Shown here: in pieces, positions 2-63,438 of the stretch
Position numbering within the stretch: the first letter of the stretch is position 1
Layout of the letters: each line of letters starts with the position of its first letter
From: Morinoia aosen
Taxonomy: Eukaryota; Arthropoda; Malacostraca; Amphipoda; Talitridae
Assembly (NCBI GenBank): GCA_030386875.1
Contig: CM059566.1
Location: 35,314,068-35,378,067 of the forward strand
Reading direction: 5' to 3'
DNA: 64,000 nucleotides
Made by a program: the position numbers and the translations under genes
Notes under the pieces: model-generated
The model's input: the letters and a program-made list of their open reading frames with translations, nothing else
The model's database searches: none
What the model was told of the DNA's origin: nothing

Positions 2-3000
2 GCCGGCGCCAACTCCTTCGTGACGGGCGGGTCCTTTGGCTCGGACGTTGTTTGTCACGTGAGTTGGAGTGTTGTTTTAATGAGAGTTGTCCGCAGCGCG
101 AGTTAGAGTGTAATAAATTCGATGTGAGAATTCAGAACACTTGAAGTAGATTTCTTTGTCTTCCAAACGTTAGTGCAATGGGCTTGTGAGAATTCCGTTT
201 GTCCGTCCCCGACATTTTTTTGAAAAGTGTAGCTTCCCACCAGTGCAGTTTCCCCTCAGGTGGCTGCCTAATAAAAACTTGAATATTGTTGTTAAGAAGC
301 CGTTCAGGTTATTCTTTAAATAAACCCACGAACAAAATGGATCTCAAACATCATGAAATGATTACACTCTCAAGTTCATTAACAGTAAACAGAGTGCGAT
401 GAAAAAAGCTGTTGAACTTTATGGAGTTATAGCTTTTGTGGAGTTAGTATTGAATTTCATTGAGTTTTGGCTTTTGTAAATATAGTATTGAATATCATTC
501 AGTGTTTGCTTTTGTAAAGTTAGTATTGAATTCCTTAGGGCATCAAGGTGTGCTGCGAGAGGCTGAAGGGTCGCATGGACGCCGTGCAGAAGTCGCTGCC
601 GGCACCTCAGGAGTGGCACGCCCTCGTGAAGACCTGCCTCGCTAGGGACGTGGACCTCAGCGAGCGCTACTGGTGGGGCGGGGGGTGTGGGTGTCGTGTG
701 GGTTTCGAGTGGGTGTGGGTGTCGAGTGGGTGTGGGTGTCGAGTGGGTGTGGGTGTCGAGTGGGTGTGGGTGTCGAGTGGGTGTGGGTGTCGAGTGGGTG
801 TGGGTGTCGAGTGGGTGTGGGTGTCGTGCGGGTGTGGGTGTCGTGCGGGTGTGGGTGTCGTGCGGGTGTGGGTGTCGTGCGGGTGTGGGTGTCGTGCGGG
901 TGTGGGTGTCGTGCGGGTGTGGGTGTCGTGCGGGTGTGGGTGTCGTGCGGGTGTGGGTGTCGTGCGGGTGTGGGTGTCGTGCGGGTGTGGGTGTCGTGCG
1001 GGTGTGGGTGTCGTGCGGGTGTGGGTGTCGTGCGGGTGTGGGTGTCGTGCGGGTGTGGGTGTCGTGCGGGTGTGGGTGTCGTGCGGGTGTGGGTGTCGTG
1101 CGGGTGTGGGTGTCGTGCGGGTGTGGGTGTCGTGCGGGTGTGGGTGTCGTGCGGGTGTCGTGGGGCGAGGATGGCACGCGGACTGAGTAACGAAACCACT
1201 AGAGCAGGCATGAACGTGGGCGAGATGAAGTCAAAGTGAGGTTAGATTTCTGGTGATGGGATACCACAGAATTGTATGTAGAAACTAGGCTAGCAGATGG
1301 AGACGAGTTTCTTTATTCTGTAATGAAAATGATCATAATTCCTCGACCCTTTATAACGAATAACGTACCCCAGAAGACGTGTGAAGTCCTATCCAAAACT
1401 TACGGGCCTGCAAACCAGTAAGACTACAATTGTTTCTATAGCTTTAAAATTGTCATGTAATGTTACTTGATGGTGGTGCGTTTGCATCGTTATGGTCTTG
1501 CTGTTTTCTCCCGTCTTTCGAAGACACAGGATGGTGCTGTATCAAAGAGAAAATATATTGTACATGTGATATTATATGAAATTATATTTCCGGTAGGGCG
1601 ACTCGTCGAGCATTGCCCATTATAAAATTGAATATTTTATATGATTTATGAAAATATCTTTAGTCTGTACCTCTTTTCATTACAGTATACCTAGGTTTGT
1701 TGTTCCCTGCATCAGTGTAACTGCCAGTGCCTGATGAATTATTTTATAACTAATGTGTTGATTGTTTCACGCGCGCGCAGGACAGCAGCAAAGGAGCACC
1801 CAGACGGCTACGTGATTTGGGCTGCCGCTGCTTTGGAGGTCGAACTTGATGCGCTCACCGGCATGTTCAAGGTGCGAGAACTGGCCCAAGTCTCGCCTCG
1901 GGCATGAGAGTACCATCTAACACACGAGTTCTCAACCTTTTTTTTTCTTCTTGCACCCCTGAAGAAATCTCTTTCGTACCTTGCACGCCCTGAAATAAAA
2001 ATTCTAACCTTTAGCCATTTTCCCACACATAATTTACCTGGACTTTTCTAGCATCCCCTGGAATATAGTCTCGCACCCCTAACGTGTGCGAGCACCCCGA
2101 TGTAGGGAACCCGTGATCTAATACGATTGCGTGGTAGTAGGAAGCGTTCAATGCATCGTTGTGTGATAGTAAGAAGCGTTCAATGCATCGTTGTGTGATA
2201 GTAAGAAGCGTTCAATGCTTCGTTGTGTGATAGTAAGAAGCGTTCAATGCTTCGTTGTGCGATAGTAGGAAACGTTCAATGCATCGTTGCGAGCTAGTAA
2301 GAAGCGTTCAATGCATCGTTGTGTGATAGTAAGAAGCGTTCAATGCTTCGTTGTGTGATAGTAAGAAGCGTTCAATGCTTCGTTGTGCGATAGTAGGAAA
2401 CGTTCAATGCATCGTTGCGTGCTAGTAAGAAGCGTTCAATGCATCGTTGTGTGATAGTAGGAAGCGTTCAATGCATCGTTGCGTGCTAGTAAGAAGCGTT
2501 CAATGCATCGTTGTGTGATAGTAGGAAGCGTTCAATGCATCGTTGTGTGATAGTAAGAAGCGTTCAATGCATCGTTGTGCGATAGTAGGAAGCGTTCAAT
2601 GCTTAGTTGCGTGGTGGTAGGAAGCGTTCAGTGGTCCGTTGCGTAGTTGTTGCAGGTACTTTTTGTTACGGTTATTGAACATCTGTAGCTCTGTTAGTGT
2701 TTTAGGGAGAGTCAACTGTGCATCCATTCAGTTATAGAATGCATCAATTAGAAGCTCTCGTAGCTGTTGGTTGCAACTGCGCTTTTGTGCCGTTTTCTCT
2801 AATTATCTATACACCATTTGTACGTACAGGAATTATTTTCAGCGTAATTGAGCACCGTTTTCGCCTCTTTTTCAAGATTCTCCGCGCGGACATCGTGGAA
2901 GACGCCGGTAGGAGTCTGTCTCCCTACGTGGACGTGGGGCAGGTGGAGGGGGCCTTTGTCATGGGCCTCGGCCTTTACTCCACCGAGGAGCTCAAGTTCA

Positions 3001-5973
3001 ACGAGGACACCGGCGAGAAAGACGTCACTGGCACTTGGGTTAGTGGATATGGGTGACCTTCACTTTGGCCGCAATTGGTAAAGCCGAAGTTCAACATTCA
3101 ACTGAACTATAAAGCTATAATTGTTCCTTCGTCCAGTTCGTCATTTTGGCGGCAGTTTCGAAGCAGGATGAATTTTACCGTGTCCTCTGATCCTTATTTT
3201 GACTGTTGTATCATAAATTCGTATGTAAAAAATAAGATATAAATCTCGAAATTCTACTGCCGTTTTGTTTTCACAAATCCGTTCATGTTATCAAAAATTA
3301 CTTTAGATTTTTCGGGTCCAGTATATAAAAAACTGTTTTTCTGGCACATAAATTAACCCATAATCAAGTTTTTCACGAGAGTAAAATTATCACGTAACAT
3401 AGTGGAACACTTGTACAAAAGTAGTCGATGATGTATCTTACATGAAATTAGCATTTCTACCAGACCGTATCCCTGGAAAGTTGTTGGTTTATTGTGATAA
3501 AATAAGGCTAGAATAACGGAATATTTTAATGCAAACTTATTCCTCCCTACGCATTGAAAAACTGAAATTATCCGCAGTTTGAATCGACCATTTGAATCAA
3601 CCATGTAAAGTGAGATTATCAAAGTTTCCCGTGTATTAAGATAGATTTTCTGTACTGGTGAATGGGCCTGGACTCTAAGCCTGCAAAATATACGCTCAAT
3701 CGGCGTGTATAGATGCGTGTATATTATCGGAGTGCATTCAGTATCAGTATATTTTCAGAATTTTACTAGTTTTAAGTTAGATTTTTTGCACTGGTGAATG
3801 GGTCTGGACTCTAAACCTAAGAAATATACGATTAACCGATGTGTGCGTTCACTGCAGGAGTACAAAGTGCCCACGGCGCTGGACATCCCGGAGGATCTCC
3901 GTGTATACTTCCTCTCCAACGCCCCCAATCCCTACGGGGTATTGAGGTCTAAAGGTGGGAAACCCTGCGTGTTGTTAGTGACCTAATTTGAGGGCGAGGA
4001 AGCCTTGCGTGTTGTTAGTGACCTAATTTGAGGGCGAGGAAACCCTGCGTGTTGTTAGTGACCTAATTTGAGGGTGAGGAAGCCTTGCGTGTTGTTAGTG
4101 ACCTAATTTGAGGATGAGGATGCCTTGCGTGTTGTTAGTGACCTAATTTGAGGGTGAGGAAACCCTGCGTGTTGTTAGTGACCTAATTTGAGGGTGAGGA
4201 AGCCTTGCGTGTTGTTAGTGACCTAATTTGAGGGTGAGGAAACCCTGCTTGTTGTTAGTGACATAATTTCAGGATCAAATTTAACGTTATGATATTAATC
4301 TGCAGTGTTCCTATTCTAAGCCTTCCTATGATTTCTACTCCTTGCAGCCAGTTGGGTATTGAATTGCAGCCAGTTGGGTATTGAATTGCAGCCAGTTGGG
4401 TTTTGAATTGCAGCCAGTTGGGTTTTGAATTGCAGCCAGTTGGGTTTTGAATTGCAGCCAGTTGGGTTTTGAATTGCAGCCAGTTGGGTTTTGAGTTGCA
4501 GCCAGTTGGGTTTTGAGTTGCAGCCAGTTGGGTTTTGAGTTGCAGCCAGTTGGGTTTTGAGTTGCAGCCAGTTGGGTTTTGAGTTGCAGCCAGTTGGGTT
4601 TTGAATTGCAGCCAGTTGGGTTTTGAATTGCAGCCAGTTGGGTTTTGAATTGCAAAAGGCGACTAACACCCTTGAGCTACAATGCTACCTAATAAAATTG
4701 TCCACGTTTCAGCGACCGGCGAGCCGCCTCTGTGCGTGTCCTACGTCCTAGTGTCCGCCCTCAGGCAGGCCGTCGCCGCCGTCCGCAGCGACGCCGGCGT
4801 TAACGGATGGTTCCCAATGCGTGAGTTGATTGCGCTCGGCGGGAGCAAAGAATGAATAAGGGAGAACGGTTTATTTCCATGTAAAGATAATACTTGGAAT
4901 TTGTAGCATTGGTTGTTAGAATGTATCGTTAAGATCTGTGGTTGATATTCACACATAGGGGGCGATGGGGTTGAGGATGTGTGGGTGAGGTTGAGGATGT
5001 GTGGGTGGGGTTGAGGATGTGTGGGTGGGGTTGAGGATGTGTGGGTGGGGTTGAGGATGTGTGGGTGGGGTTGAGGGTGTGTGGGTGGGGTTGAGGGTGT
5101 GTGGGTGGGGTTGAGGGTGTGTGGGTGGGTTTTGAGGGTGTGTGGGTGGGTTTTGAGGGTGTGTGGGTGGGTTTTGAGGGTGTGTGGGTGGGTTTTGAGG
5201 GTGTGTGGGTGGGTTTTGAGGGTGTGTGGGTGGGTTTTGAGGGTGTGTGGGTGGGTTTTGACGGTGTGTGGGTGGGTTTTGAGGGTGTGTGGGTGGGTTT
5301 TGAGGGTGTGTGGGTGGGTTTTGAGGGTGTGTGGGTGGGTTTTGAGGGTGTGTGGGTGGGTTTTGAGGGTGTGTGGGTGGGTTTTGAGGGTGTGTGGGTG
5401 GGTTTTGAGGGTGTGTGGGTGGGTTTTGAGGGTGTGTGGGTGGGTTTTGAGGGTGTGTGGGTGGGTTTTGAGGGTGTGTGGGTGGGGCTGAGGTTTTTGT
5501 TGTGGAAATGTTGCGTTGTGCGGGGTGTTGAGGTAGCGGTCGTGTAGGTCTTGCTATTGCCGTGTGTTTAGTATTATCAGTTTTGTTGATAATGTTAAGT
5601 AAAAATACCTTAAAGAAACCTGTTGCATATGAATAATTTTAAACAGAAACGTTTGTATGAAAACTGTGAATAGTAATTATTAATTTAATGAAAAACAGTA
5701 TGAAAGCGCTTTTAACACAACAATTTGAAATGAAACATTAGATGTAAGAGTTTTAATGGAAACAAATTGGTTAGAAATTGTATTTTGAGCCTGCAAAAAC
5801 TTCATACGACCAATAGTATGGAAATACATCATACAAACAAATCTGTAGGAAATCTTTTGTATGATGAATGTTTCATACGAAATAATCCTTTCTGTTCTCC
5901 AGATACACCGCTGACCGTAGAGAAGATCCAGCAGCTGTGCCTCGTTAAGCCTGAGCAGTTCAAGCTGCAGTAA
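2..5973 (+). CDS. Aldehyde oxidase-like molybdoflavoenzyme, C-terminal part (5' end outside window)
   Basis: Seven exons join in frame: 2-58, 539-672, 1781-1871, 2877-3038, 3858-3954, 4713-4820 and 5903-5973 (stop TAA), giving 239 residues. They form the C-terminal end of the molybdopterin domain of the xanthine dehydrogenase/aldehyde oxidase family, cytosolic enzymes that oxidise aldehydes and N-heterocycles. Recognisable blocks are [47 protein letters not shown] and TGEPPL. The Glu of GEPPL (codon 4721-4723) aligns with the catalytic base of the family. '[19 protein letters not shown]' is aldehyde-oxidase-like; xanthine dehydrogenases usually carry SKAVGEPPLF. All introns are GT-AG. The exon 2 acceptor could instead be at 547/548, an in-frame difference of three codons. 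The linker between exons 2 and 3 is shorter than usual. All six introns carry tandem duplications. Family assignment is firm; the aldehyde oxidase versus xanthine dehydrogenase choice is an inference from residues. Confidence 0.9.
432..538 (+). repeat. 38-bp tandem repeat ending at an exon acceptor
   Basis: Units start at 432, 470 and 508 with GCTTTTGT and run to the acceptor of aldehyde oxidase exon 2. The third, shortened unit supplies the real ...CCTTAG, while the second ends in an acceptor-like ATTCAG. The rest of this intron (59-431) shows nothing recognisable. Confidence 0.75.
685..1163 (+). repeat. 17-bp G-rich minisatellite, about 27 copies
   Basis: The array begins 12 bp after the exon 2 donor (673-674). 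It has two blocks: about 7 units containing GGGTGTCGAGT up to about 826, then about 20 units containing GGGTGTCGTGC. The strand is strongly G-skewed with GGG runs, so G-quadruplex formation is conceivable. All six reading frames stay open, giving artefactual Val/Gly/Cys or His/Pro/Thr polypeptides that I do not consider real proteins. Confidence 0.95.
1919..2121. mobile_element. hAT-like MITE remnant
   Basis: The left end reads CACGAGTTCTCAACC and the right end, read inverted, CACGGGTTCCCTAC, a terminal inverted repeat of the hAT 'GGTTCTCAACC' type. ATCTAA occurs on both flanks and may be part of an 8-bp target duplication. Similar internal text (cacccc...ctggaata) recurs at 15894-16100. It lies in an aldehyde oxidase intron. 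Confidence 0.5.
2124..2645 (+). repeat. 32-bp minisatellite, about 16 copies
   Basis: Units are built around GCGTTCAATGCATCG followed by TTGTGTGATAGTAAGAA. Variants (GCATCG/GCTTCG, GTGTG/GCGAG) repeat in blocks, suggesting higher-order duplication. It lies between aldehyde oxidase exons 3 and 4. Positions 2650-2876 show nothing further. Confidence 0.95.
3641..3846 (+). repeat. 139-bp spaced direct duplication before an exon
   Basis: About 66 bp starting at AGATTTTCTGTACTGG (3641-3707) recurs at 3780-3846. The second copy runs up to the acceptor of aldehyde oxidase exon 5 (exon start 3858). Positions 3039-3640 of this intron are AT-rich without recognised features, apart from a stretch near 3070-3120 resembling the TTAA MITE family. 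Confidence 0.7.
3955..4278 (+). repeat. 40-bp minisatellite starting at a 5' splice site, about 8 copies
   Basis: The first unit begins at the aldehyde oxidase exon 5 donor (GTGGGAAACCC at 3955). Later units contain GTGAGGAAACCC-like text in the same context, so splice-donor-like sequence is repeated every 40 bp. The exact 40-bp phase is visible from the recurrence of ACCTAATTTG. Confidence 0.9.
4343..4654 (+). repeat. 22-bp minisatellite, 14 copies
   Basis: The unit is CAGCCAGTTGGGTTTTGA plus ATTG or GTTG. The first two units have GGGTATT. The array ends about 58 bp before aldehyde oxidase exon 6 (4713). Confidence 0.95.
4958..5492 (+). repeat. 20/21-bp G-rich minisatellite, about 26 copies
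   Basis: About 8 units of GGGTGGGGTTGAGGATGTGT are followed by about 19 units with GGGTGGGTTTTGAGG. It lies in the last aldehyde oxidase intron. The GGG-rich strand is the transcribed-sense strand. Positions 5500-5900 are AT-rich with no further feature. Confidence 0.95.
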
Positions 5974-12500: not shown

Positions 12501-15500
12501 CGCTTAAAATTATTAAATTTTATTGTTTAAACTTTTGTTGGTGGCTTGTGTTGCAATAGTGTGTTTTAGTTTTCTTTATTGAGTTGTCAGTCTATATTGT
12601 AGATGATAACATGCTATTTGCATTGGCATCTGTGTTAACTATTTGTGTTTATTTAGGTATATACCATGGGAGAAATTAGACAGTAGGCTTTTAGATGCTT
12701 TTAAATAGTGATTTCAATGGTTTTGTTTTTTCAAAGTAAAATCCAATAAATCTATTTGTAAGAGTTATATTGTCTCAATGGTAGTATGATAAGCAGAAAA
12801 ATCTTTGAATGACATGTTTGTTAAAACAAATAATTGATTTTTATTGTATTTTTTTGCAGTGCTTGGATTGAAAATTCCAACCTTAAACCATTTTTCGCCT
12901 TTCGGGAGCGATTGGTGAAAGCCAACAAGACTGCACCTTTCAAAGATGCCATTATTGCCATTGATAAATACATTGAAGAATTCAACGTTAAGGTTTGTGA
13001 ACCATTACATTTCTGTGCTCATGAAAAATTTTTGTTTAATATGAAATTTTTATGCCTGTGCTGAGTAGTTAGTTACACGTATTGTAAATGACACCCTGAG
13101 GATATTTAATTGTGAAAATTTTTGGTAATTTTATTTTGGAAAACTGACTTTTTTATCTGAAAGATCCACATGTCTCATGAGAGCATAAGTGTTGACATTC
13201 AGCATATAATTTTGGGTGTTGGACATTCCTTCAATGAAGGGGTCTCCAAACTATCAAGTCTTAAGGCCATACTGATTACTTCAGTAAGTCCCAAGGACCA
13301 AAACTGCTTTAATTTTCCTGCTGTTATCAATAATTTCTATAGTAGTCACCAAATACTTAACCTGAGCAAGTGTATGCTTGCTTAATTTATTAGTTCAGAT
13401 ACTACGTGTATTGTTGATGGCTGCAGAGTAGTAGCCTAGCACATGCTTTGAGCAAGCATAAGCTTGCCAAATTCATATGTTTGATTACTATGTGTCATAT
13501 TATGTATGGTAGAAGGCTGGAGTAATCGCACTGCTGGGCCAGATTTGGCCAACGGGCTTTAGTTTTGAGATCACTGCTCTAATTTATACCTGGCACTATA
13601 CCTGTATGATCACCAAGTGTCAAAATAGACCAGAAGCCTACTGCTTCATCAACACTTGTATGTTGAGAGTACAACAGATCAGACTATGGCAACAGAAACA
13701 TGCTGAGTTGCCCATTATTGGGTTGTTCCCCCAAGTCCCTCATTATAGGCACAAATCATGAACAGGCATCAGAGTAAAAGGAAAGGATAACTAAGAGTTG
13801 ATAACATTCAAGACTGAAAATGTTTCAATGTTCAATGTTTAATTGGAAATTTCATTTAACCCCTTCCCCGGCAGAAATGTGTATACTCGCTTTCACAAAA
13901 TGTTAGTTTTTCAGTTGTCAATGAGTATACTCGTCTGTGAAATTTTACCCTAAAAAACCAGCTACATGCATATATACTCATCAATTTTAGGCCTTTGTAA
14001 GCCATTCTACGCGTGAAACGAGTATTCTCGTCAAATTGTACGCCTGGCAGAGGCGATAGGGTAGAGCTGTGGGATTTCAAAGACAGTGTTACTAGACTTG
14101 CTCCAACAGCCATTGATGTCGGATGAATGTTGTTTGCATCCACATTTCTGTTCATTTTTTTTGTAGCATTTTCAAGTGTTACACCCCAAATGTCTAGTTC
14201 AACAGAAGATTGTGAATATGAACCTTCCCTCAGAAGCTTGAATACTTCTGATAACTCTGCCAGTTCATCAGACAATGACTATTTCTCAACAATGACTATT
14301 TCTTGCCATCAGACAATGACTATTTAACTCGTTTATGCCAACAAAGGTATTTTCAAAATAAAAAGTTAACCACAAAAATGGAAAGAAAAAAGAATTACGA
14401 ACTGTTTCCATTACCAGCATCAAAAATACTACGTAGAACCAAAATGAAAAAAAATAGTCTGAAAAAGAAACATTTTCAACAAAAAAGTTGATGGGGAAGG
14501 GGTTAATACGAAGTATTTGAGTCCTATGAAATGAACTTGTTTTCAAATATATGTGTGTTGTGTTTATGCTATTAATATATCTACTCAAAAATACCTAGTT
14601 GTATGCTACAAATCTTTCTTATTAAATATAGAGGGGTTTATACTCCCAGCAGCCACTCTGTGAAGTATTTTTGTCTTCATTGTTAGATTGGCAACATTCA
14701 TAGTCAAACTCCTTGATGAGAATTTCCCAGCAGGTTTTTAGGGGGCTGGACAAAAATTGTATTCTATGATTAATTTCTACATTAAACTAAACTTGGGATA
14801 AGTTTTTTCTGAACTCAAGTTTTCTTATAACAATAATAGTTGACAAAATGCTCATTAGATCTACCCTAAGACTTCATGAAGAATATTAAATAGCTCTTAA
14901 AATACTCTGCATTTCTACTGAAAGGCTTCATGAAGAATATTAAATAGTTCACAAATACTCAGTATTCCTACCAAAAGACTTCATGAGGAAAATAAAGTAA
15001 CAAATAAAAAATGTCTCGGATCTGTGCAGCCGGGCGCAAGTCAGAGCAGCGCAGACAGTGCTCCCGAGTCTGCAGACAGCAGCCTCAGAGAGGATGACTC
15101 GAGCTCCCTTGCCTCCCCGCCCGCTACTAAGCTCAAAATCAAGCTTGCCACCAAGAAGAAAGTGAAGGTAATTTTATTTACTAACTTCATGCTATTGTGT
15201 TCAATCAAGTTAAGAGATAATTTTGATACTTGATCAAAACTGACCTATTAACACTTTGACTGCATTAGCCACTGGTGGTACAGGGAAGAAATTTTCATAA
15301 TGCTGCTGACCAACCAGTAGTCACAAACTCAATTCTCATGAATCCTTAATCATACCTAAATGAAGGCACGATTCAGTGAATGGCGTGCTATTTTCAACAT
15401 TGCTGAGTACAATTAACTGTTAATTTGAGTTGAACGTTAAACTTGAGTTTTACCTGCTGCAGTTAACGTGTTAAGTGAAAGGAATTTTTTCATTTTGTTG

Positions 15501-18500
15501 TGTAGCATAAGAGAAAAATAAACCAATCGTCAAAGAAGTGAAAGCTAGTCGATGCTGTTGTATGTTAAAAATCAGATTAGTAAAAAGTTTAGCAATAATT
15601 TCAACTGAATCATGACCAATTTTTCTTTGACTCTCTAATAATAATTACTGATTGGTTTCTCACAAAATCATTCTCATTTTTCATTATTATTTCACTCCCA
15701 AGATGTTCTGGCCAGGCTTGTGAGCTGGCAACTCATAATAAAAATTGCAGGCTTCAAGATAGGATATTTTCCCTTTAGCAGTAGGGTTGGGTAAAAAATT
15801 GAATGAAAGTCCAGTCAGTGGGCAAATCTTTGTGGGGCTGTTACCATGGTACATATTGTAGAGTTCTTTCGAAATTGTCTTTTTAGACCAGGGGTTCTTA
15901 ACATTTTTTGCACCGCACCCCTTGAAATATGAATGCCTTCATATAGCTATCATCCTTTTATTTACTGGGACTTTTCTTGCACCCCCTAAAATATAAATGC
16001 CTTCATATAGCCAATATTTACTGGGACTTTTCTTGCACCCCCTGGAATATCTTCTCACTCCCCCAGTGGGTGTGAGCATCCCAGATTAGGAACATCGTTT
16101 CAGATTGCTGGTTAGCTTCATTTGAAAAAGATTGCTGATGGAGATTGCTAGTTAGTGCATATTGTGTTTTTAATGCATTGACTGCGATGGAGTAAACTGA
16201 AGTTCAGTATTCACCCCGAAAATTTTTTAAAACCAAGCACTAACTGGGTCCATTAAATGCCATTAATTTTAAAAGATTGTTGAAACTTTTTCAAACGATC
16301 CATAGATGGGTCGTTTTGCAGCAGAAAAAACTTGAGCACAACCCACCGGTGGGTCGTATTGCAGTCAAATGTGTTAAATCAATTTATGAAATATCAAAAT
16401 GCAGAGGGAAATGTTGGTTACATTAGTTCAACTTGAAGAGCAGGTTACATAAAAAATTTCTATCTTCATCTTATATATGTTGGTAACATGGTTGACACGT
16501 ACGTGACCTTTCGATTGGGTATGGGCATTTCTCTGGTGCGCAACCTGTAATAGTTATACTCGAACCATCCCTGTTGGTGAAAACCTTAACTGTCCTCATT
16601 CAAGTATATACGATCCTCATTCAAGTATAGTTCCTGTTTTCTTTCTAGCTGAAAATACAGATGTCATTTGTGGCTCCTTCTCATCTATCATGACTTCAGA
16701 TATAAATTAGTGTTCAGAATTTTGTACTTTTTTATTTCATAAGCAAAATGATAATTATTTTATTTGGGTAAACTAGGGTTACTGGAGGCCTGGCCTGTAA
16801 TGTAGATTACCACTTGATATTCTTAGGAATGATACTTTTGAAGAGGAAGTGTGATGTGATCATGTTAATTATGTTTGGGTGTACAGAGGTTCTAAGTTTG
16901 TTTGAGGTATTTTTTCTTACTTTGTTAGATTCGAAGAAGCTTCACAAATTGTTACAAAAATGAGAATTTGAGGAATATCATGTAGGATTTCCAAGAGGGA
17001 ATTTTGCTAATTTCATGTTAGAGTTTTTGGAAATTTTGTTGGACAAATAGAAAAACTAATTAAACTATTGAAAAATTGATAACTCCAGAAAAGTTTTTGC
17101 TGCTAAATCAGTTCTTGCAAATTACCACCCAATGTATTCATGTCTGCGTTTGATATTGCAGGGTTCTTCATCTGACAGCCCGCTGGAGGGATCGACAGGC
17201 AAGAAGAGGAAATCGGAGAGCACCGGAGGCGTGTCCAGCAGCGACAAGCACGCCATCAAGAAAATGAAAGCAGAGGCCCGCATTAAGGACTCGATGCTGG
17301 CCTCGCCTTCTCTCAATGCCAAAGCCAGAGTGTCCGCCTTGCTTGACAGACCCGTGCATATCCACAGACCTGTGAGTGGCATGTTGAGTGTCTTAGTGGT
17401 GTGTTGCGTGTCTCTTGTGGCCAGAGTGTCTGCCTTGCTTGGCAAAACTGTAGCTGCTGCCAGATATTGTCTGTTTGGAGTCTGGCTGTGGTGATAAGAT
17501 GAAAAATACAGAAATATTGGCTTAGGGTTTGTTATTTTTCTGATTGTGGTGATCAGGTGGAAAATATAGAAATCTTGGTTTAGGGTTTGTTCTTATTTTG
17601 ATTGTGGGGTATGCCTGTATGTTATCAACTTGAAATTATGTTCCAAAAGTCGAAAACCATTCTGAAACTGAACACAACCTTGAAAAATATCTCTGATGAA
17701 CGCTCTCCACAGAATGGTTCCAACTGTGAAGTGCTTGGTTTGTATGTATGCATGTACGTGATTGTGTTATAGTCCTGTATGAAGTAGTAATGTACCCTGC
17801 TTCGAATGAATAGCGTCATCTCAAAACTTCATTTTAAGGTTGGGCAGGAGTACAAAAAGTAATCACTAGGAGCTAAGTCCCTCAGATCATTTTAATTAGC
17901 TTGGTTACGTAGTACAACAGAGACGAAGAATATCAGGATAGAAACATTGCAGTTTTAAGTAGTAAGTGATTAATCATGCTGAAGGCATGGTGTAGATGAT
18001 GTGCCTTAGTTGAGCGCTATTCACGAGCTGCGTCTGGGGGGAAAAAGTTATCAAGTATGAGCTGAAAAGCTAGGTGCCCTGAAATCAATAGAGTCCTGAA
18101 TGAAGTTACGGAAACTGAGGCTTGTAAGGCACGAAAATATGCTGTAAATGCTACACGGAGGGATCGCCTGTGGTTAAAATCGTTGTTACACCCTATGTGG
18201 GGCCTGAATTTACCTTCCTGGTCTTACCTGTTCAAGAATTCTTCATGTGTGCGATAGAAAGATCAGCTAATTTACTCTTGACAAGGGTATTTTTCTCTGT
18301 TGGGAATTCATTGTGTACAATTTTACAAATGTAATGAAAGGATGAACTGTTGTTGCCGAAACTACATACTACTTTCTAATTCTTTTGATTTGTAACCTAG
18401 TTTGTCATGTACTTTCATATTAGAGGCTTTATTCGTATTGTCACTTGAAAAATTTTTTGTTACAGCTTCACATTTTGTGGTTGTCCTTTGTTATGTTCAT

Positions 18501-42500: not shown

Positions 42501-45500
42501 CCATGTCACGTACCATGTCTGACGCCATTGCCATGCCACTTACCATGTCTGACGCCATTGCCATGCCACTTACCATGTCTGACGCCATTGCCGTGCCACT
42601 TACCATGTCTGACGCCATTGCCATGCCACTTACCATGTCTGACGCCATTGCCATGCCACTTACCATGTCTGACGCCATTGCCATGCCACTTACCATGTCT
42701 GACGCCATTGCCATGCCACTTACCATGTCTGACGCCATTGCCATGCCACTTACCATGTCTGACGCCATTGCATGTCACGTACCATGTCTGACACCACTGG
42801 TGTGGGCGCGACAACCCAGCCGCTACCTTCAGCCAAGCGTTTCGTCCTGACCACAGATGGTGTTCGGCAACTGTGGAGTCCTGCAAGAGATGACTGCCGA
42901 CAAGGCCTACGTCGAAATGACCGGCATCGACGCTGAAACTTCCCAAGATCTCGCTGACGTGAGTCCTGTCCTTCTTTTGTCTTTTTTGGTATGGTTTGTA
43001 GTGTGTGCTTCACGTGGGCTCCTGTTTTGTATCCATCAGTTTGTCGTTTCAGTTTTGATGGTTGTTTGCATAGGATTGTTGGTATTTCTGGTGATTTTTT
43101 AGATAGGGTTATTGGTATTTCTGATGATTGTTTACATAGTATTATTGGTATTTTTGATGATATTTTAGCTGGAATCAATGTTTATGTGTGTGAACTCCCA
43201 GTTGTGCTATCTATGTGTCCGAAATTGATTTTCAATTGAAAATATTCTCAACGGTCCGTATAATATATAAAATATTTTCAATTGAAAATATTTTCAATGG
43301 TCCGTATAACTCGTTCCCATACAAATGTACGAATGCATCAAGTATTATTTATAATTGATTCTTTAAATCCTATAGCGTTGTTAGACATTTCTTTCTCAAT
43401 AGATTTACTTCCGATGCACGATGCATGTTCCTAACTGTATCATGTGTTATCATAATACTAATGTCTCAAAATGCATAACAAATGTCAAACATTATTAAAA
43501 AAATATAAAAAATATTCTTACCCTCAAAAATTTGCATAGAAACTAATTCAAGGTATGCAAGCATTCACATGTGTGTCATAAATCATTATCACTTATCACA
43601 AATATTCCTAACCATGAAGCACATCGTTATCAGAAGGTAAATGTCGCTATTAAATGTATACCAATGTCGTGTATCGTCTCAAAAATAATTTGCTGTTTGC
43701 AAAATAATAAACAGTTTTGAGGAAGGTTATCCATTTTCCCACCATTATTGCCCACTAAACCCCCACATTTTGTCAGGTTGCATTTATAGCTGATTTCGGG
43801 TAATATTTTCCTTGAAATGGATGTTTGTAGCCCGTGGAAATTCCAAACGTTGTTCTTTACCATTATCGAAAGAACACTGAAGACGGTGTCACCCAAACTT
43901 ACAAGCCCACAAGATTTTGGGAGTTGTTTAGATATTTAAATTACGTTTTAATATGCTGGTAGGTATCTAGATTACGTTATAATATCCTGGTAGGTGTCTA
44001 GATTACGTTATAACGCTTTGGTAGGTGTCTAGATTACGTTATAACACCTTGGATATCGTTACGAAGCTGATCACATCTGGTGGTGTGGCAGGCGATGACA
44101 TCAGCGGGCGGGCGGTACCTGGAGGCGCAGATCCAGGGCTCGCGGCAGCAGGCCGAGAGCGGCACCCTCGTCATCCTGGCCAGCGGAGACCGCTCCCTCT
44201 TCGACGACTGCCAGAGCTGCTTCCAGGCCATGGGCAAAAACTCTTTCTTCTTAGGTCAGGCTGTGTTTTTGATATCCAGTGTTGAACATTTCGTGTAGCA
44301 ACTTAATTGGAAAAAACTGTTTTTCTTTTTCTGTTGTGATCTGTGTGGAGGTTTTTGATTTTTAGTTGTAGGGGTTTGCATGATGGTCTGTGGATGTAGT
44401 GGTTTGCATGACAATCTGTGTTTGTAGTGGTTTGAATGATAATCCCTGGTTGTTGTAGTCTGGATGAAAAATCTGTGGTTGTAGAAGTTTAAATAATAAC
44501 CTGTGGGTGTAAAAGTTTAAATGATGATTTGTGGATGTAGTGGTCAGGACGATGGTTTTATAGTATGCTAATTTAGTGATCTAAAAGTTCCTGGCTTCTG
44601 GGGACACGTAGTTATTTGGATTCACGTCTTTGGGGCTATTTGAACATGGTGAAATTGATGGAGCGTTTTGGGGTCAGTGCTTGACGTGAGTCGAAAGTAT
44701 TTTTTAGGTCAGTGCACACACACTAAGGGCTTAACTTGCATTTTTTGAGCTTGGTAAATTTGATTCAAGCTCTCATTTTCTTCAGATCACTCCACGTTAC
44801 TGTGATAATAAGGTCTCTGTGGGCAGGCAAGGCTTGACGATGTACTTGAGTATATGAGGGCAGAGGTCAGCAGTTCGAAGGGTGCTAGTGAGATGTTTCT
44901 GAGTTGCCATGCTACCAGTTTGTGGTTATTGAGCCCTATTCTCCCCAGAATATTGGCTAAAACAAAAGTCTGTGGTATCCTGTAAATGTTTACTGGATTA
45001 AGAACAATGCAGGGTTGTCAACGATCAGGAATCTTTAGCAAAAAACACGTAGTGGTTATTTCTCATGACAATGTCTGAGCACTGTTTACGGTCTGTGCTT
45101 TATGGTCAAGTTCTTATCACTGTCCATGTGTCACCTGTGTTCGCTATATCTTAGTTTCTTATCATATTCATTCCTAACACCTACACCACATCAGCCTGTT
45201 GCAAAGGGACCACTGTAGCTTGGCTTGTTGTCAATTTTCAACGTAATCAGTTGCTTTTCTAAATTTATGGCTTTAGTTATTAGTGAAAATTGAAACGCTT
45301 TACTTAGGATATCGATATCTTATTTTTATCGGAGAAAACGCTCCCGCTTACCGCAGTTTATCACTATTCCCTGGATTAACAACTGCATTAGCTTCCATCA
45401 AAGTACGTAGCATTTCATTAAAAATATCAATGAGAATGATGCCACCTGCATTTTTCGTTTTCTGCAACGGGCCCACATAGTCTTGAAGCGTATCTGCAGT

Positions 45501-48500
45501 TGACGGGCCCCTCAGGGGGATACAACTATTGTATCTATGGGAATTAGCGCTCCCAGGGGAACCATGTGAGGGCCCGAGCTAAAGGTTAGGTAGGCTTCCT
45601 TTTTGTTGTAATAAAATAGGTTTCTGTTTCGTTACGGACCATCTATTTTCGGTTCACTGCTGTCCTGTTTTTCAGCACCTACTACTTTCTTCAACTTTTT
45701 TCTTGTTTCATGAACTTCTTTCCTAGCTTACTGTTTCTGTGCACCTTGTGCATAGATTCCGCGTTCCCTCAACTCCATACTAAATGGTGCCTTCTTCTTT
45801 CCTCTCTTGGAACATCTTTGTTGTGGTTAAGGGAGGCTAAAACTTTCTTATATAATAATAATAATCTGCAGTTGACGGGATGTTATCTGCATTAAATTCT
45901 TCTGCATGTTTGAAAAAACATGGACAAATTTATTCACATGTAGATTTAGTGTGTGAGTGATGGGGGTGATGTTTCAAGTTGAAGATTATTAAGGCCTTAA
46001 AAATATTTTATCTCTATAAAGGTTCTATTAAAACTAAAATTTTTTCCTCCAAATAGTAAAATATCGCTCAACTCATTTCCATTTCAATTTTTTCATTTAT
46101 GTTTCGTTAAATTCGCTTGTTCACGCTGAATACGCTCGTATCTAGACATTAGAGTGATCTAGCTGTGTATATGAACTTGTGGAGTTACAGTCGCTTCTCT
46201 AAGTATATAAAACTAATTATTTTCTATAGAAAGATTGGTTCTTTTTTCCTCATTGTGGGTAAATGAATTACAATTATTATCTTTACCACTCACTGTAAAA
46301 TTACTACTCAGATGGTTATAGAGAGGTTGAGAAAAAATTGCTGATAATTATATACGACCATTTAATCTTCTGTGTAAACTGTGCACGATACAATTCAAAC
46401 CTGATGACTGTGAATTCATAATTTTTTTTGCGTATTCAATTGCTAAAACGAGCAACAACGATGAATTTTACAATGTTAATTTTTCATAGATTCATCTCTT
46501 CACCAATCTCCTCTCCTGGTTTATCTTCGCCACATTGTTGGAGCACTTTCATCTTTTATTTTGTGTTTATTGTCTTTTAAGGTTTGCTTGCTCCATCTTT
46601 TTTTCAGCTGACCTGACCCATTCGTTGTGCCATCTGTTAGAATTATGTTGCGTGAACTGCAAGAGATAGGCATGCATCGGCAATGACTGGCCTCAGAAGT
46701 AATACTTGAATCACTTAGTGCCCGTACTTGAATGTCGTGAGTTGACGTTTTTTTGGCTGTGTTGAAAATCTCATTTGTTGGTAAATTGGTATCAGATTAT
46801 CTTTTCCTTTTAGGCAAAGGATGAGGATGGCACGCGAAAGCTTTACTTTCTGTGAAATATTTGCAAAAAAAAATATATTTTTGAGCTCTTTGTACACAAA
46901 TGTTGGTCATTCGTTGTAAAGTACTTGAGTGCATTGGTATATTTGGCTCTGCATCGAATGGAAAAAATATTCCAGCTCCTCGAACACAAGCTCTACCATG
47001 TGGTTTCGAACCGTGTAATGTCCTTTTTAATTTCTCTTTGTTAATTTTCTAAGACTACTATTTTTTCTTCAACTAGAAGTACGTAATTCACTATTCTGTA
47101 GTTGCGCAGGTGAATCGTTAGGATATGTGAACGATTGTACGAGTTTTCTGCTTATCTGATTATTCTCGGCTTTTTCTGGTGTCTTTTTGAGGGGTTCATG
47201 TAGATTGTACATTATAAAGCAGGATAGAGAAAAATTCCTTTCAAATTGCGTGATTGATTGCCCGTATGTGATTTGAAACGTGAGGCACCCAAACGGTGGA
47301 ATGTCAAAAATTCAAAGTGTCTAAATTTCAATTGTGTTTTATAGAAGAATTAATTTCTATTGCTCTTTAAAAAACAAAATCCCTCTTCTGCCTATGATTT
47401 TTATAAGTTAAAGGTCGAAAAATTTCAGTGGCACGTGTTGAAAAGACCACATTTCATAGCCTGCTACAGCTTTTCCTTATCAAACTTTGCAGTTTGTTGA
47501 TTTGAAAGCATAGTATGGAGGAAATGTTTTTAAAATCGTTGAAATTTTACTTCCAAAATGACGATTCGTCGAGAATCTTATTAGAAGAATAAATAGAAGA
47601 AGCTGTGTAAAAACGTATATTTATGGCTAGCGTTTCGGAATTATTAAAATTCCATCATCAGTGCTGAATCAGGAGAAAAATAAATAAAAATTTAAATCTC
47701 TATAAAAGTATGTGTATATTGGTGTGTAAACTTGTGTAGATATCTCATAGAAACTTGTATAAACTCGTACATATTTTATATATGTATGTATAAATACATA
47801 TAAATCTATATCTTTATACATATTCCATAAAATTCTGCAATTTCCAGGCGAGGTCGGGAACGCGAGCAAGATGAACTTGGTGATGCAGGTGATGGCTGGT
47901 GTGACGCTGGCAGGCCTCGCAGAGGGTATGGCGCTCGCCGACAGGGCGGGCTTGCAACAAAAAGATGTGCTAGAGATCATGGAACTCACCTCACTCGCCT
48001 GTCCCCTCATCATTGAGAAAACTAAAGGTGAGGCTGATGGTCCTCGTTGTGTGTCTACTCGTGTAAAACTGATGGCCCTTGTATGCGTGCTCTTTCTAAC
48101 CCTTTAACGCCCGCGTTTTTTACTGATGTTACTGTTATCACAACCACCATCATTAACCCTTCAACGTTCACATTTTGAACTCATATTACCTTTGTCACAA
48201 ACACCATCACTAAACTAGCACCGACATCACTACGAGGAAGAGACTGCCACTCGATAATGAACTTCGAAGAACATATTAGGGCACAAATTTCACAAAAAAT
48301 AGAATAAATTAGAGCTGTTTATGGAAGTGGATTTTGAAATCCACTTTGACGTCAAAGGGTTAAGAAAAGACACACTGTACCACAAAGGGAAAAATCTATT
48401 GAAGAATTGACACTATGCTGAAGAACTAAATGACATCAGTGTGGCCGAAGACTAAGTAGATTGCTGGTTCACACGCATTCTTAGTTGATTTAGGATTGTA

Positions 48501-53118: not shown

Positions 53119-53771
<653 letters not shown>

Positions 53772-54313
53772 GTCTGCTGCGTAATTAGAAATAAAATGTT
53801 CGAATTAAACGACTTATTCAAGCCTGTCTTCTCATTTTTCTATCATCATTTAACTAGTGACTTAATTTTGGCTGCATATTTGAAATATTTTTTGACATGT
53901 TAGAGATGACCCTCATATGAATTTTGAAATTCTTAGTTTTTCTCATAAACAATTAATTTAATAAAATTACTTGTGTGCACAGCCAGTCAAAAGTTCCGGG
54001 ATTCGATATTTTTTTTTTAACTAAAACTTCCGGATGTGGATGAAAAACAAATACGAGAATATCCATCCTAATAGTACCTGCAGTTAAAATATTCTTGTAT
54101 TTGTGAAAATCGTATCACAGATGCGGTCATTGAGCATCCTCAATAACGTGACAGAGAGACGGACTAACTAACTGACAAACCAAGCAAGACAATTGTTCAT
54201 GATTATTTAGCGGATGTGTGGATGTGAAGTTTAAAGAAATCTTTGTCTTTAGTCTACAAAGCCCTTGAAATTTTCATACTTCAATTTCAATCAATTTACA
54301 TGACCTTAACGCC

Positions 54314-54679
54314 CCTCAGGGGGATACAACTATTGTATCTATGGGAATTAGCGCTCCCAGGGGAAAAATGTGAGGGCCCGAGCTGAGAGTTAGGTAGGCC
54401 TTCTTTTTGTTGAAATAAAATGTTTTTTTGTTATGTTAAGGACCACCTTTTTCGGTTCACTACTGTCCTATTTTCCAGCACCTTTGACTTTTTTCTTCAA
54501 CTTTTATCTTATTTCATGAACTTCTTTCCCATCTTACTGTTTCTATGCCTTTTCTGCATAGATTCCTCATTTTATCTCCATACTAAATGGTGCCTTCCTC
54601 CTTCCTCTCTTCGATACGCTCTATTTTTGCAGCGGTTAGGGAGGCTTAAACTAACTTATAATCTAATCTATAATCTAAT
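54314..54679 (+). mobile_element. SINE-like retroposon copy 8
   Basis: It has a perfect 15-bp target duplication CATGACCTTAACGCC at 54299-54313 and 54680-54694. The full head is present (CCTCAGGGGGATACAAC) and the tail is two TATAATCTAATC units. Confidence 0.95.
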
Positions 54680-54704
54680 CATGACCTTAACGCCGCTAAC
54701 TTCC

Positions 54705-55062
54705 TTTCAGGGGGACACAACTATTGTATCTATGGGATTAGCGCTCCCAGGGGGAAAATATGTGAGGGCCCGAGCTGAGAGTTAAGTAGGCCTTCTTTTG
54801 GTTGAAATGAAATGTTTTTGTTTATGTTGGGGACCACCGTTTTTTGGTTCCCTGCTGTCCTGTTTTTCGGCACCGACTATTTTCTTCTTCAACTTTTATT
54901 TTGTTTCATGAACTTCTTTCTCAGCTTACTGTTTCTTTGCCTCTTCTGCAAAGATTCCGCGTTCCCTTATCTCCATACTAAATGGTACCTTCCTCCTTCC
55001 TCTCTTTGTGACGCTCTTTTTTTTGTTGCCGGTTGGGGAGGCTTTAACATATAATCTAATCT
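54705..55062 (+). mobile_element. SINE-like retroposon copy 9
   Basis: It follows copy 8 after about 25 bp, in the same orientation, starting TTTCAGGGGGACACAAC and ending TATAATCTAATC. No clear target duplication. Confidence 0.85.
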
Positions 55063-55271
55063 TTATGCTAATTTATGGTCCCTGTATCGACTCTAGACGC
55101 TATCACGGTTCTCTTCAAACTTGTAGTACGACTTTACCTACCACAGATTTGCTCTGAAATTGTTAGATTTGATCGCCAATCTTCATAGAGTAGGTGCTGC
55201 CTCTAATAACAGTAGACTCAATACACCGATGAAACAAACGTCTCTGTAGCGTCTTCGGTGGTAAAATGTCG

Positions 55272-57519: not shown

Positions 57520-57553
57520 ATTTATTTATATATTTATTTATTTATTTATTTAT
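57520..57553 (+). repeat. (TTTA)n microsatellite
   Basis: About 34 bp of TTTA with one TATA interruption. Confidence 0.85.
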
Positions 57554-60462: not shown

Positions 60463-60468
60463 TTTATT
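60463..60468 (-). promoter_or_regulatory. Candidate polyadenylation signal of the SLC18 gene
   Basis: AATAAA on the minus strand, about 520 bp after the stop codon. Confidence 0.35.
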
Positions 60469-60989
60469 TTCATCTTGATACGATCGCTTTTCTCAGTACT
60501 AGATACTGAATTTGGTGATGTGTTTGTGATAATGGTTAAATGTGACAGTACAGAGCATGTGGGTCGGCATGAACACCCGAAAGCCTTAAAAATTGGTTTG
60601 ATTTCCGCGTCGGTAAAAAGGCATGCGAAAAGGCCACAAAAAAGGCTAATAATAAAACAAAGATTCTCGTTAAGAACATTGATGGTGCGTGCGAATTGGT
60701 CATACATTCTAAACATTGAAAAAATTAATTATTCATTTGACATTTTCCAGGAGCATGTTTGTTCTCGTAATTTTCTTTGTTTAATCCAAAATGGTCAAAC
60801 AATGTATAAAATTTAGATCACAATTCATAAAAAATGCATATCAATCATGAAAAAAAATATTTTCTGCGAAAATTTGACTTCACGCAAGAAATGTAAAGTC
60901 TCAAATTTCTTCGTCCTGAAAAGAATCTTTACCTTCAGTACATCAATGAAGTTAGTGCTAGCAGCGAGGATAAAGAAATTAAAGGTGAC

Positions 60990-63438
60990 TTAAGGGAGCT
61001 GTTGGTAGGACAGCCTGCTGAGCTCCACGCTGTCTTTAGCTCCTGTCTTCAGCTTGTGGTTTGGCACCGCTGCTGCGGCGCGAGGTGGCGGAGTCTGGAA
61101 TGAAAACCCATTTTAACACTTTGACAGCAATAGCTGAAATTGAAGTTCAATATTCAACTCAAATTTAAAGTCAATTGTAGTGAAAATTTTGAGAATAGAA
61201 AATAATAACTGGGTCATGGCTTCAGCTAAATTTGATTTATTATTTATGAAAATCGCGTTTGTGACTACTGGTCGGTTAACATCATTATGTAAATCTCCTC
61301 CTTGGCCACCGGCGGCGCACGTTGCGGTCAGAGTGTTTAGGGTAAGAGATGTTGATGACGGCATCAAGAGGGACGATTAAACCGCCAATGAGCGCTATAA
61401 AGTGAGCATTTTCTACAAGGTTTACTCATACGTCAAGAACGGGTAACTCGCGCTGACACTTGTTTAATGCTATAACATCAGCTGAATGATTCAGTGTATT
61501 CAGTGTACTTATATCGCCAGCTTTGCTCAGTAAACAATGGATACTTCTTTTCAGTGTACTCATCGGCAACTTTACCTTGGTTCCAATGAGCGGCTGCGCG
61601 TCAAGCGTCCTGAGGATGAAGGGAGACACGAAGATGTTGAGGACAGCGAGACACCGCAACATCCAGCCAAAGCTCGTCAGCTTCATGAGCCACACGCCGA
61701 ACACGGGACCTGGAGCAGCGCAGAAGGTGGATCGTAGATCGGCAATGTTTCAGAGAAATGTATTTCATTGATAGACGGTAGATTGGCAATGTGGGTAATA
61801 TGTGAAATATGGTTCATTAGTTTTGGTAGATGGACAATGAAGATGATACGTGAAATATGTTTCATTAATTTTTTCATATTACGGTAGATTTGCAATGAAG
61901 ATGATATATGAAATGTGTTTGATTAATTTTTTCATATCACGGTAGATTTGCAATGTTGATATGTGAAATATGGTTCATTAATTTTGGTAGATTGATAATG
62001 AAGATGATACGTGAAATATGTTTCATTAATTTTATCAAAACAGCATCTCTATGTAATAGCCATGTTGATGGTAGCCATGCCTGGCTCGACACCCAATATC
62101 ACTTCAAAATGTGAAACGCTGAATTAATGCAGTGTTCAGAATTTACTTACATGCATTATATACAATTCTGCGTGAAGGTTTTGGGGAGGAAGTAATTTAT
62201 GCAATAATACTACCATGTTAACCAACTGAAACAAATAACTTCCGTTTCACATGAGTAAAGCCATTTTTTTTGTAAGCACAGGTCTTCTAGCAAATAATTT
62301 GCGCTTGATTATTTTGTTATCTATTATATTATCCTAGAGAGATATGGCTTAACCCCTTCCCGTCATAACTTTAAAAAAATGATGTGTTTAAAGTCGACAA
62401 AACCTCGTTGAGACATGAATCGTTTCGACATTTTAGTTTTTCCCATTTGTTTGATAAATTCTGTTTCCCACATTACAGAACTATTTCACGCAACACAATT
62501 CTTAATTTTTTTTCAAACCATGGTCGAGATCAGTAAAATTAACCAAGGAAAGAAAGATAGATATGACTCTAACTAACATACCAGCACAGTAGGCCACCGC
62601 CACGGCTCCCTGCGAGATGGCGTACACGGTAGCGTAGTGGGCGTGGGAGGTGAGGGAGTCGACGTGGGAGGCGAGCAGTGGGAGCAGTGATGCGTCTACA
62701 GCTCCCACTCCCAACCCCACTCCCACGTGGGGCAACGTAAGCTTGCCAACGCTGTTAGCAAACGGGATCTGAAAAGATGAACAGCTTTTTGAACATAAAG
62801 TAAGCCATTTTGATTGACTGATAGAATGCGCTTTGCACGCATGCTATTTTATGTTTATCTATTGTTATTTTGCTCTTAGCATAATGCTTTAAAGTATAAA
62901 TAGTTTATTTTTCACCAAAGCTTTATCTATGGTTTTAAGTGTATATTTCTAAAATTTTGCTGCAGTAGCATAAACTAAGATAAATTTTCCTACAAAAGGA
63001 AATATTATCCAGAAATTCGTTTATGTAAAGAAATGAATTATAAGCATCCACTTTACAACAGATATGAAGGAATTACCGTGTGGAACGCTCATTTATTAAT
63101 AGAAATGTAGCAGTTATCATCTTGAACACGCATTCGTCAACGGAAACAAGTTAATTATAATTTAGAACACTCATTCAACTACGGAAAAAGAGTAATCATA
63201 ACACACGGAAAGAAAGTAATCATAGCACACAAAAAGAGAATAATCAGAACACTCATTCATTCACTGAAATCGAGCCCTCATGATCAGCACTGACGCAGAA
63301 GGTGGAGAAAGCAACCAGTCCGCAAGCAACTGCAGCGGCGCGGGGACGTCCGTAGCTCTGCGCGGCGCCCCCCAGCAGCGTGGCAGCGGCGAAGTAAGCG
63401 ATGCTGTCAGGCAGGAACACTGCCCCCAACTCCCATCG
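60990..63438 (-). CDS. SLC18-family vesicular amine transporter-like, C-terminal part (5' end outside window)
   Basis: Four minus-strand exons (63438-63295, 62768-62582, 61709-61576, 61094-60990 with TAA) join in phase to 189 residues. They cover about the last five membrane segments of the 12-TM SLC18 proton antiporters (VMAT/VAChT type), which load transmitter into secretory vesicles. Diagnostic blocks are RWELGAVFLPDSIAYF, FCIPFA, GVGLGVGAVDASLLP, VYAIS...AYCAGP and SFGWMLRCLAVLN. The cytosolic tail ends RLSYQQLP. The TM10 acidic residue (Asp codon 62696-62694) is kept. The TM11 position that is Asp in VMAT2 (YAIAD) is Gln here (codon 62612-62610), so substrate or coupling may differ. VMAT-like versus portabella-like assignment is open. 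A tandem repeat and a MITE sit just upstream of the third and fourth exons. Confidence 0.87.
61113..61339 (+). mobile_element. TTAA MITE, family A
   Basis: Starts TTAACACTTTGACAGCAA and ends TTGCGGTCAGAGTGTTTA. It begins only 18 bp from the acceptor of the last SLC18 exon (61094), so it supplies most of that exon's upstream intronic context. Confidence 0.75.
61728..62038 (+). repeat. Degenerate 50-60-bp tandem repeat, about 6 copies
   Basis: Units contain GGTAGATTGGCAATGAAGAT and ATGTGAAATATGGTTCATTA with indels. It starts 18 bp upstream (minus-strand sense) of the third SLC18 exon visible here. Confidence 0.8.
62350..62365. mobile_element. Isolated piggyBac-like terminus
   Basis: TTAACCCCTTCCCGTC matches the end of the 13856-14506 element. 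No partner terminus is visible nearby, so it is probably a solo or truncated end in an SLC18 intron. Confidence 0.35.

Follow-up and report, generated by a model that had tools for sequence, protein, structure and literature searches.

Tandem arrays lie beside splice sites in the genome of the amphipod Morinoia aosen far more often than shuffled or arbitrary placement predicts. The window examined here, a stretch of 64 kb (contig 11, positions 35314068-35378067, of a 2-Gb genome in 29 contigs), carries the 3' part of an aldehyde oxidase gene (AOX) and the GLYR1/N-PAC gene on the + strand, and part of an SLC18-like transporter gene on the - strand. A sequence-only reading of the window had suggested that minisatellites abut its exons more often than by chance, and we have confirmed that this excess is real, both in the window and at protein kinase exons elsewhere in the same genome. 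At a few junctions the repeat contains the splice junction itself. With some reserve, we lean towards the view that exon edges are preferred places where tandem duplications arise or survive, sometimes spanning the junction, and from which they expand into the intron.

Arrays are concentrated at exon edges

Exons were rebuilt from the reading frame, the AG/GT signals and the phase, keeping the numbering of the earlier reading; as placed they make up 9.6% of the window, in agreement with the 9% or so estimated before. Tandem Repeats Finder (TRF; periods above 6, calls merged) gave 22 arrays in the window, 20 of them in 19 introns. Eleven of the 22 have a splice site no more than 70 bp away, against 1.14 when positions are shuffled across the non-exon window (p=0.0002), and these are 11 of the 20 intronic arrays, against 3.59 when each is shuffled within its own intron (p=0.0002). 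The comparison with shuffled positions within introns had been proposed as a check on the whole assembly; run on the window with a 140-bp cut, it gives 14/20 against 7.1 (p=0.0005). These window p-values are nominal, the pattern having been chosen by a reader and some arrays sharing introns.

The 70-bp count was repeated with parts of the data left out or exon placements changed. It stands at 7/14 against 1.8 without AOX, 6/8 against 2.3 without GLYR1, 10/17 against 3.5 without the 22-kb GLYR1 intron, and 11/20 against 3.9 with dispersed repeats barred from the shuffle; when a doubtful linker exon and a leucine-rich-repeat (LRR) gene are removed and the alternative acceptor of GLYR1 exon 7 is used, it is 10/20 against 3.5 (p=0.001). 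AOX taken alone is weak (4/6 against 1.8 at 70 bp, p=0.07) and not significant at 140 bp (4/6 against 3.6, p=0.53). A tandem finder independent of TRF detected 19 intronic repeats and placed 11 of them within 70 bp, where 3.05 are expected; it missed the TRF arrays at 412, 12311, 43929 and 63181 and contributed three dimers close to splice sites, together with a pair of dispersed elements at 54299-55072. When TRF arrays and dimers are pooled, 17/23 lie within 140 bp (7.8 expected), and an array or dimer is present in 18 of the 19 introns, counting one 14-bp dimer and, for the intron of the LRR gene, its own dimer. With the arrays collapsed to points, 16/23 are found in the outer eighths of what is left of the intron, where 25% are expected (p=9e-6), and 13/20 do so when TRF arrays alone are taken (p=2e-4).

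Outside the window, the same genome was searched for the Pfam kinase domain PF00069. From 135 matches, 60 were chosen by hand with their repeats unseen; they are partial, lie mostly in short open frames and include no obvious duplicates. The first 40 of these exons, with their 80 flanks, form the tested sample, and 1600 pseudo-exons in 14 arbitrary 10-kb stretches served as the control. An array lies within 30 bp of 13 flanks (1.88 expected) and within 70 bp of 16 (2.98 expected; p=0.0002), an excess of about five- to sevenfold; at the wider cuts the counts are 18 against 5.20 (140 bp) and 23 against 8.64 (300 bp), with p=0.0002-0.0004 across the four distances. Judged by strand, the 16 flanks with an array at 70 bp or less divide into 10 at donors and 6 at acceptors. 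The excess at 70 bp appears in both halves of the sample, 9/40 flanks in the first 20 exons and 7/40 in the second 20, against 1.49 in each. Because L040 and L044, both in the first half, proved to be duplicates of a single locus (93% and 85% identity in the flanks), the test was redone without L044: the remaining 78 flanks gave 12, 15, 17 and 22 at 30, 70, 140 and 300 bp, against 1.83, 2.96, 5.17 and 8.76 (p=0.0002 each). A stricter count over the first 20 loci, in which arrays overlapping a match are ignored, gives 7/40 within 100 bp against 1.54 (p=0.001).

Coverage follows the same course. At the first 20 kinase loci, arrays occupy 16.6% of the sequence at 0-100 bp from the match, 14.4% at 100-200 bp and 10.2% at 200-300 bp, and then 4.9% at 300-500 bp, 6.0% at 500-800 bp and 8.0% at 800-1100 bp; arbitrary DNA (140 kb, 14 stretches) has 8.2%.

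Several other kinase loci have a common flank stretch at 75-79% identity, which we take to be a dispersed element. Several kinase matches, L040 and L044 among them, also occur as pairs on one contig, with the same or nearly the same score and some 0.08-4 Mb between the two, possibly as recent duplications or retained haplotypes. At L043, presumably a casein-kinase-2-like exon, the exon apparently ends at a GC donor (CAG|GCAAGT, oriented 608-616), and a tandem array begins some 10 bp into the intron.

Repeats that contain the splice junction

At five junctions the position of the splice site lies inside the repeat unit, and at four of them more than one exon base is repeated. The clearest parallel is with the mirages of amphioxus, described in the accessible part of their report as boundary-spanning tandem repeats in Adh3 and the globins BflGb6 and BflGb9 (PMC3087553).

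At the acceptor of GLYR1 exon 8, the segment from -37 to +11 recurs six times upstream (40464-40771; at least 55% ungapped identity), and five of the six copies retain the AG, the true acceptor AG being at 41064-41065. The 57-bp flank scores 37, above the null maximum of 32 in 20000 draws, whereas significance is not reached with the first 20 exon bases by themselves (p=0.09); the copies are diverged rather than exact, with 56-73% ungapped identity to the junction. At the donor of GLYR1 exon 6, the segment 17324-17384, which comprises exon bases 17324-17371 and the donor side, is echoed once at 17420-17489. Identity over this dimer is 49/71, rising to 23/25 in the exonic core 17324-17348, with the donor side weakly aligned, and the score of the exon part, 40, exceeds all 20000 null draws (maximum 22). 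The array at AOX exon 5 has the donor position inside its 40-bp unit and carries GT in five of eight copies including the true donor; the single exon base that it repeats is the last one.

Two further cases come from the kinase sample, L064 and L035, which we take to be CDK-like and HIPK-like, respectively. The end of the L064 exon (..CTTTGCTGAGATG, then GTGAG) is followed downstream by eight more copies of that end, with GGTGAG, at a spacing of 42 bp. The L035 acceptor has three upstream copies, all three with the CAG kept, and scores 46 against a null maximum of 26 of 3200. A unit of the mirage type, in which exon bases and splice signal are repeated together, is therefore present at GLYR1 exon 8, L035 and L064, and at GLYR1 exon 6 with a weak donor side. 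At the first three, the exon edge is the original, because the exon is conserved coding sequence: GLYR1 exon 8 lies inside a gapless alignment with human N-PAC (2uyy), and L035 and L064 match PF00069. This direction from exon to repeat covers GLYR1 exon 8 and the kinase exons only, GLYR1 exon 6 being a linker exon placed without a homolog check.

Homology between unit and junction was scored on flanks only, with windows that overlap arrays discarded as circular. It continues toward the junction in three arrays, those starting at 696 (back toward the donor of AOX exon 2, inner-flank p=0.0007), at 40474 and at 61777 (a degenerate copy continuing toward the third SLC18 exon acceptor, p=0.009); repeated exon bases occur only at 40474. 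We also considered that all near arrays might be mirages and rejected this, as most of those in the window (12/15) stop before the junction. We file the five junctions as mirage-like, one of them a dimer and one with a single exon base, and the rest as exon-adjacent minisatellites.

Origin of the exon-edge arrays

If exon edges are preferred places, duplications of about 15-160 bp would arise, or survive, preferentially there. Where a duplication spans the junction, the one copy next to the exon would stay a working splice site; the additional copies would lie in the intron with AG or GT signals to spare, and may multiply there; where it falls just inside the intron, an ordinary minisatellite adjoining the exon would result. 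Growth would be directed into the intron, extension into the exon presumably being selected against. We infer that exon edges may be birth sites, and not survival sites only; the junction copies and the doubled array coverage at the edge favour this. A wider claim, that exon edges are birth hot spots genome-wide, that junction copying is a main engine of intron growth and a standing supply of spare splice sites in this lineage, and that most introns have abutting locus-specific arrays, may hold, and we regard it with some doubt.

A number of observations weigh against exon edges as preferred places of duplication. Mid-intron arrays occur too, at 2127, 10893, 12311, 21152 and 22976, and arrays are found in all 14 arbitrary stretches (55 in 140 kb); exon edges are therefore favoured and are not the sole place. 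No unit homology continuing toward the junction is seen in the 12 of 15 near window arrays mentioned above, and in some arrays the unit extends on the far side (4971, 41544 and 63181 at p<0.05 under both scorings; 696 and 18601 under one). Seeding near exon edges, as proposed in the sequence-only reading, is borne out for the few junction-containing repeats; those 12 do not display their origin. Replication slippage or repair, as suggested there, may be the molecular cause, and so may template switching or unequal exchange. An echo of the exon edge reaches p<0.05 at only 3/40 window junctions, and only 1/80 kinase flanks exceeds the null maximum, in a scan that omitted the outer 10 bp of the matches and so hid most of L064. 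The sample outside the window comes from a single protein family (40 exons), and match ends stand in for the exon ends. By eye, at least two of them, one at L043 and the acceptor-side one of L064, overrun the real exon end, so a gap of 0 at a kinase flank does not always mean a spanning array. The stricter count at 400 bp is 10/40 against 5.62 (p=0.06; first 20 loci).

Passive retention would account for the distribution in another way: arrays would be born anywhere, whether in ancestrally short introns or in all introns, and insertions and deletions in the intron interior would push them to the ends or spare them there. Exon edges would then be the survival places of old arrays. Sequence near exons is under constraint and takes up insertions less readily, several GLYR1 introns contain copies of a dispersed element, and most near arrays are without sign of a junction origin, all of which suits this account; the coverage of 4.9-8.0% at 300-1100 bp, against 8.2% in arbitrary DNA, makes some loss away from the edge possible. 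Nevertheless, we consider retention unlikely, if well worth keeping in view. The excess persists with dispersed repeats barred from the shuffle, edge coverage is twice that of arbitrary DNA, and the junction-containing repeats are left unexplained. Introns with up to 700 bp of non-array sequence point weakly the same way, with 6/10 arrays in the outer eighths (p=0.02), or 5/9 (p=0.049) with TRF alone.

Selection for function, with arrays kept as splicing enhancers, decoy splice sites or splice-site spacers, would fit their presence on donor and acceptor sides alike, and has a parallel in the C. elegans minisatellite CeRep25B, which, in the available part of the report, is enriched in introns beside alternate exons (PMC4039745). 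Yet the units are mostly unalike in sequence and length, TRF copy identity of 98-99% in several arrays fits recent turnover, and the density of splice-like motifs is mixed (one donor pattern at 0.72 per kb in arrays against 0.49 in introns and two patterns lower, with no significance test), so we hold function to be improbable. We give as little credence to a sub-mechanism of the preferred-place reading in which breaks linked to transcription or chromatin (R-loops, exon-positioned nucleosomes) make edges fragile independently of the splice sequence. Two donor-side AOX arrays are extremely G/T-rich on the sense strand, with GC skews of 0.70 and 0.99; over all 22 arrays, however, the sense-strand skew is not significant (positive GC skew in 14/22, p=0.29), and neither is a G+T content above half (15/22, p=0.13), the skew result counting against preferred places as well. 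A fluke, selection by the reader or an assembly artefact is very improbable. The pattern was indeed chosen after looking, and the window offers few independent introns, with neighbouring arrays sharing them; the repetition of the excess in both halves of the kinase sample largely refutes chance, and the divergence of the GLYR1 exon 8 copies speaks against an artefact.

Arrays, dispersed elements and gene models of the window

The arrays are listed in the table. All those named in the sequence-only reading exist, and the stated distance of up to about 140 bp holds for each except the donor-side array of AOX exon 6. Their units, described there as unrelated, are mostly unalike, apart from the arrays 21152-21752 and 22976-23254, whose TRF consensus sequences are similar by eye. 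That reading had passed over four near arrays (14835-14990, 63181-63252, 43056-43168 and 17487-17607) and two dimers (3615-3844 and 48097-48213). The 17-bp unit of array 696-1158, searched for as a dimer, has at least 19 exact places genome-wide, all within that array.

Tandem repeats near exons and dispersed element copies in the window (positions of the window; strand of the gene or element; distances to the splice site)
Feature	Positions	Strand	Description	Detection
AOX exon 2 acceptor side	412..532	+	38-bp array x3.2, 6 bp short of acceptor; exon 539-672	TRF
AOX exon 2 donor side	696..1158	+	17-bp array x27, 23 bp past donor	TRF
AOX mid intron	2127..2630	+	32-bp array x16, 246 bp from closest splice site; counter-example	TRF
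AOX exon 5 acceptor side	3615..3844	+	two-copy repeat, offset 136-137 bp, 77/100 identity; second copy stops 13 bp ahead of acceptor; exon 3858-3954	
AOX exon 5 donor	3954..4273	+	40-bp array x8, begins at last exon base, distance 0	TRF
AOX exon 6 acceptor side	4342..4654	+	22-bp array x14, 58 bp off; exon 4713-4820	TRF
AOX exon 6 donor side	4971..5486	+	21-bp array x25, 150 bp off	TRF
GLYR1 linker exon 15030-15167, acceptor side	14835..14990	+	53/54-bp array, 39 bp off	TRF
GLYR1 exon 6 donor	17324..17489	+	junction-spanning dimer	
GLYR1 exon 6 donor side	17487..17607	+	58-bp array x2.1, 115 bp off	TRF
GLYR1 exon 7 acceptor side	18601..18796	+	15-bp array x13, 14 bp off (65 bp if the alternative acceptor is used); exon 18811-19035	TRF
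LRR-Ig exon 1 donor side	31147..31304	-	85-bp two-copy repeat, 27 bp off provisional donor	self-BLAST; missed by TRF
GLYR1 exon 8 acceptor	40464..41076	+	junction-spanning array; TRF array distance 37 bp	
GLYR1 exon 9 acceptor side	41544..42796	+	30-bp array x42, 60 bp off; exon 42857-42958	TRF
GLYR1 exon 9 donor side	43056..43168	+	33-bp array, 97 bp off	TRF
GLYR1 exon 10 acceptor side	43929..44052	+	31-bp array, 39 bp off; exon 44092-44254	TRF
GLYR1 exon 10 donor side	44367..44544	+	28-bp array x6, 112 bp off	TRF
GLYR1 exon 11 donor side	48097..48213	+	57-bp dimer, 69 bp off; exon 47848-48027	
SLC18 third exon acceptor side	61777..62037	-	48/58-bp array, 67 bp off; exon 61576-61709	TRF
SLC18 exon 1 donor side	63181..63252	-	24-bp array x3, 42 bp off; exon 63295-63438	TRF
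Dispersed element copies	19413, 24012, 33840, 40222, 41344, 45508, 48691, 54312, 54709	+		

The exon placements on which these distances depend are supported, as predictions, by two protein alignments. GLYR1, of which 11 exons were located (numbered 2-12; the first exon, looked for in the window during exon rebuilding, was not found), aligns over residues 234-520 with human N-PAC 2uyy without a gap (314.8 bits), and this alignment crosses five junctions, from exon 7/8 to exon 11/12. Residues 2-238 of the AOX fragment align with 7px0, which we presume to come from a mosquito, at 186 bits and with three one-residue gaps, the next chain scoring 129 bits; this match, like features of GLYR1 and of the LRR-Ig gene, points to an arthropod host. 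Spliced frames are open in GLYR1, AOX and SLC18. Pfam finds MoCoBD_2 in AOX, LRR and Ig domains in the LRR-Ig gene, and MFS_1 in SLC18 under the curated cut-off only; exon 2 of SLC18 resembles vesicular monoamine transporters. The GLYR1 linker exons at 15030 and 17162 were placed without a homolog check, and for GLYR1 exon 7 the alternative acceptor lies at 18862.

The LRR-Ig gene (28410-33451, - strand) encodes a membrane protein in an open frame of 707 codons and is nested antisense in the 22-kb GLYR1 intron. The candidate for its following exon, 29677-28410, fails to join in phase, for which reason the donor of its exon 1 is provisional. The LRR-Ig protein had no match in viral contigs, Rfam at the gathering threshold gave no match in the window, and a short DNA pattern searched for in the window had none either.

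The dispersed element is about 360 bp long; its nine copies all lie on the + strand, and two are partial. For an exact 24-mer taken from it, viral and prokaryote contigs gave no match, and a search of phages for relatives gave none. The copy at 40222-40473 ends one base ahead of the TRF start of the GLYR1 exon 8 array. Other dispersed repeats, in both orientations and about 71-77% alike, lie at 12174, 15248, 56234 and 61113, and also at 16169 and 37175. A perfect (GT)324 microsatellite occupies 53121-53768 (648 bp, 100% matches in TRF).

Relation to known systems and significance

The papers compared here were available in part, and the likenesses and differences below hold for those parts. 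Besides the genes named above, a mirage is described in amphioxus PGBD5, with Adh and troponin C also cited (PMC3902484). Splicing is reported to be undisturbed by mirages, length differences are given for Adh3 and BflGb6, and mirages are proposed as a route to new introns (PMC3087553, PMC3902484). As in amphioxus, the unit in our junction-containing cases spans the exon-intron boundary, at either end of an intron, and spare copies keep the AG or GT; unit lengths here are likewise those of minisatellites, GLYR1 exon 6 being only a dimer. The copy beside the exon would stay functional here too, as is documented in print for amphioxus. The amphioxus reports proceed gene by gene in a lancelet, whereas here the relation was measured in a large arthropod genome, against controls and across unrelated genes. 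Unlike mirages, most arrays described here adjoin the junction rather than span it.

In Drosophila, tandem duplication of proto-splice sites has been described as a source of new introns or novel intron positions (PMC2891723), and a potato RdRp gene is reported to have gained an intron by tandem duplication (PMC4974935). In these cases, as in ours, a local tandem duplication that includes splice signals alters intron structure; there, duplicated coding sequence makes the intron, whereas here it is the ends of existing introns that acquire multi-copy arrays. CeRep25B, whose host genes have several splicing decisions (PMC4039745), is likewise an intronic minisatellite tied to regions near exons, but it is one family with the same unit in several genes, whereas in M. 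aosen units differ by locus. In unit length and copy number the arrays resemble ordinary minisatellites or variable number tandem repeats, which would not be expected to be five to seven times commoner at 30-70 bp or less from an exon edge. Among the papers that we looked into, mostly openly readable ones and a part of those listed, there was no genome-scale analysis of the distance of tandem arrays to splice sites and no multi-copy mirage outside lancelets; the accessible part of a paper on Daphnia tandem repeats contained no splice-distance terms (PMC3152781).

From a practical point of view, gene models and read alignments in the M. aosen genome may meet many decoy splice sites. The copies found at exon edges hint at how introns grow and change, and an edge excess of this size, being repeatable, opens the place and manner of intron growth to direct tests with ordinary genome data.

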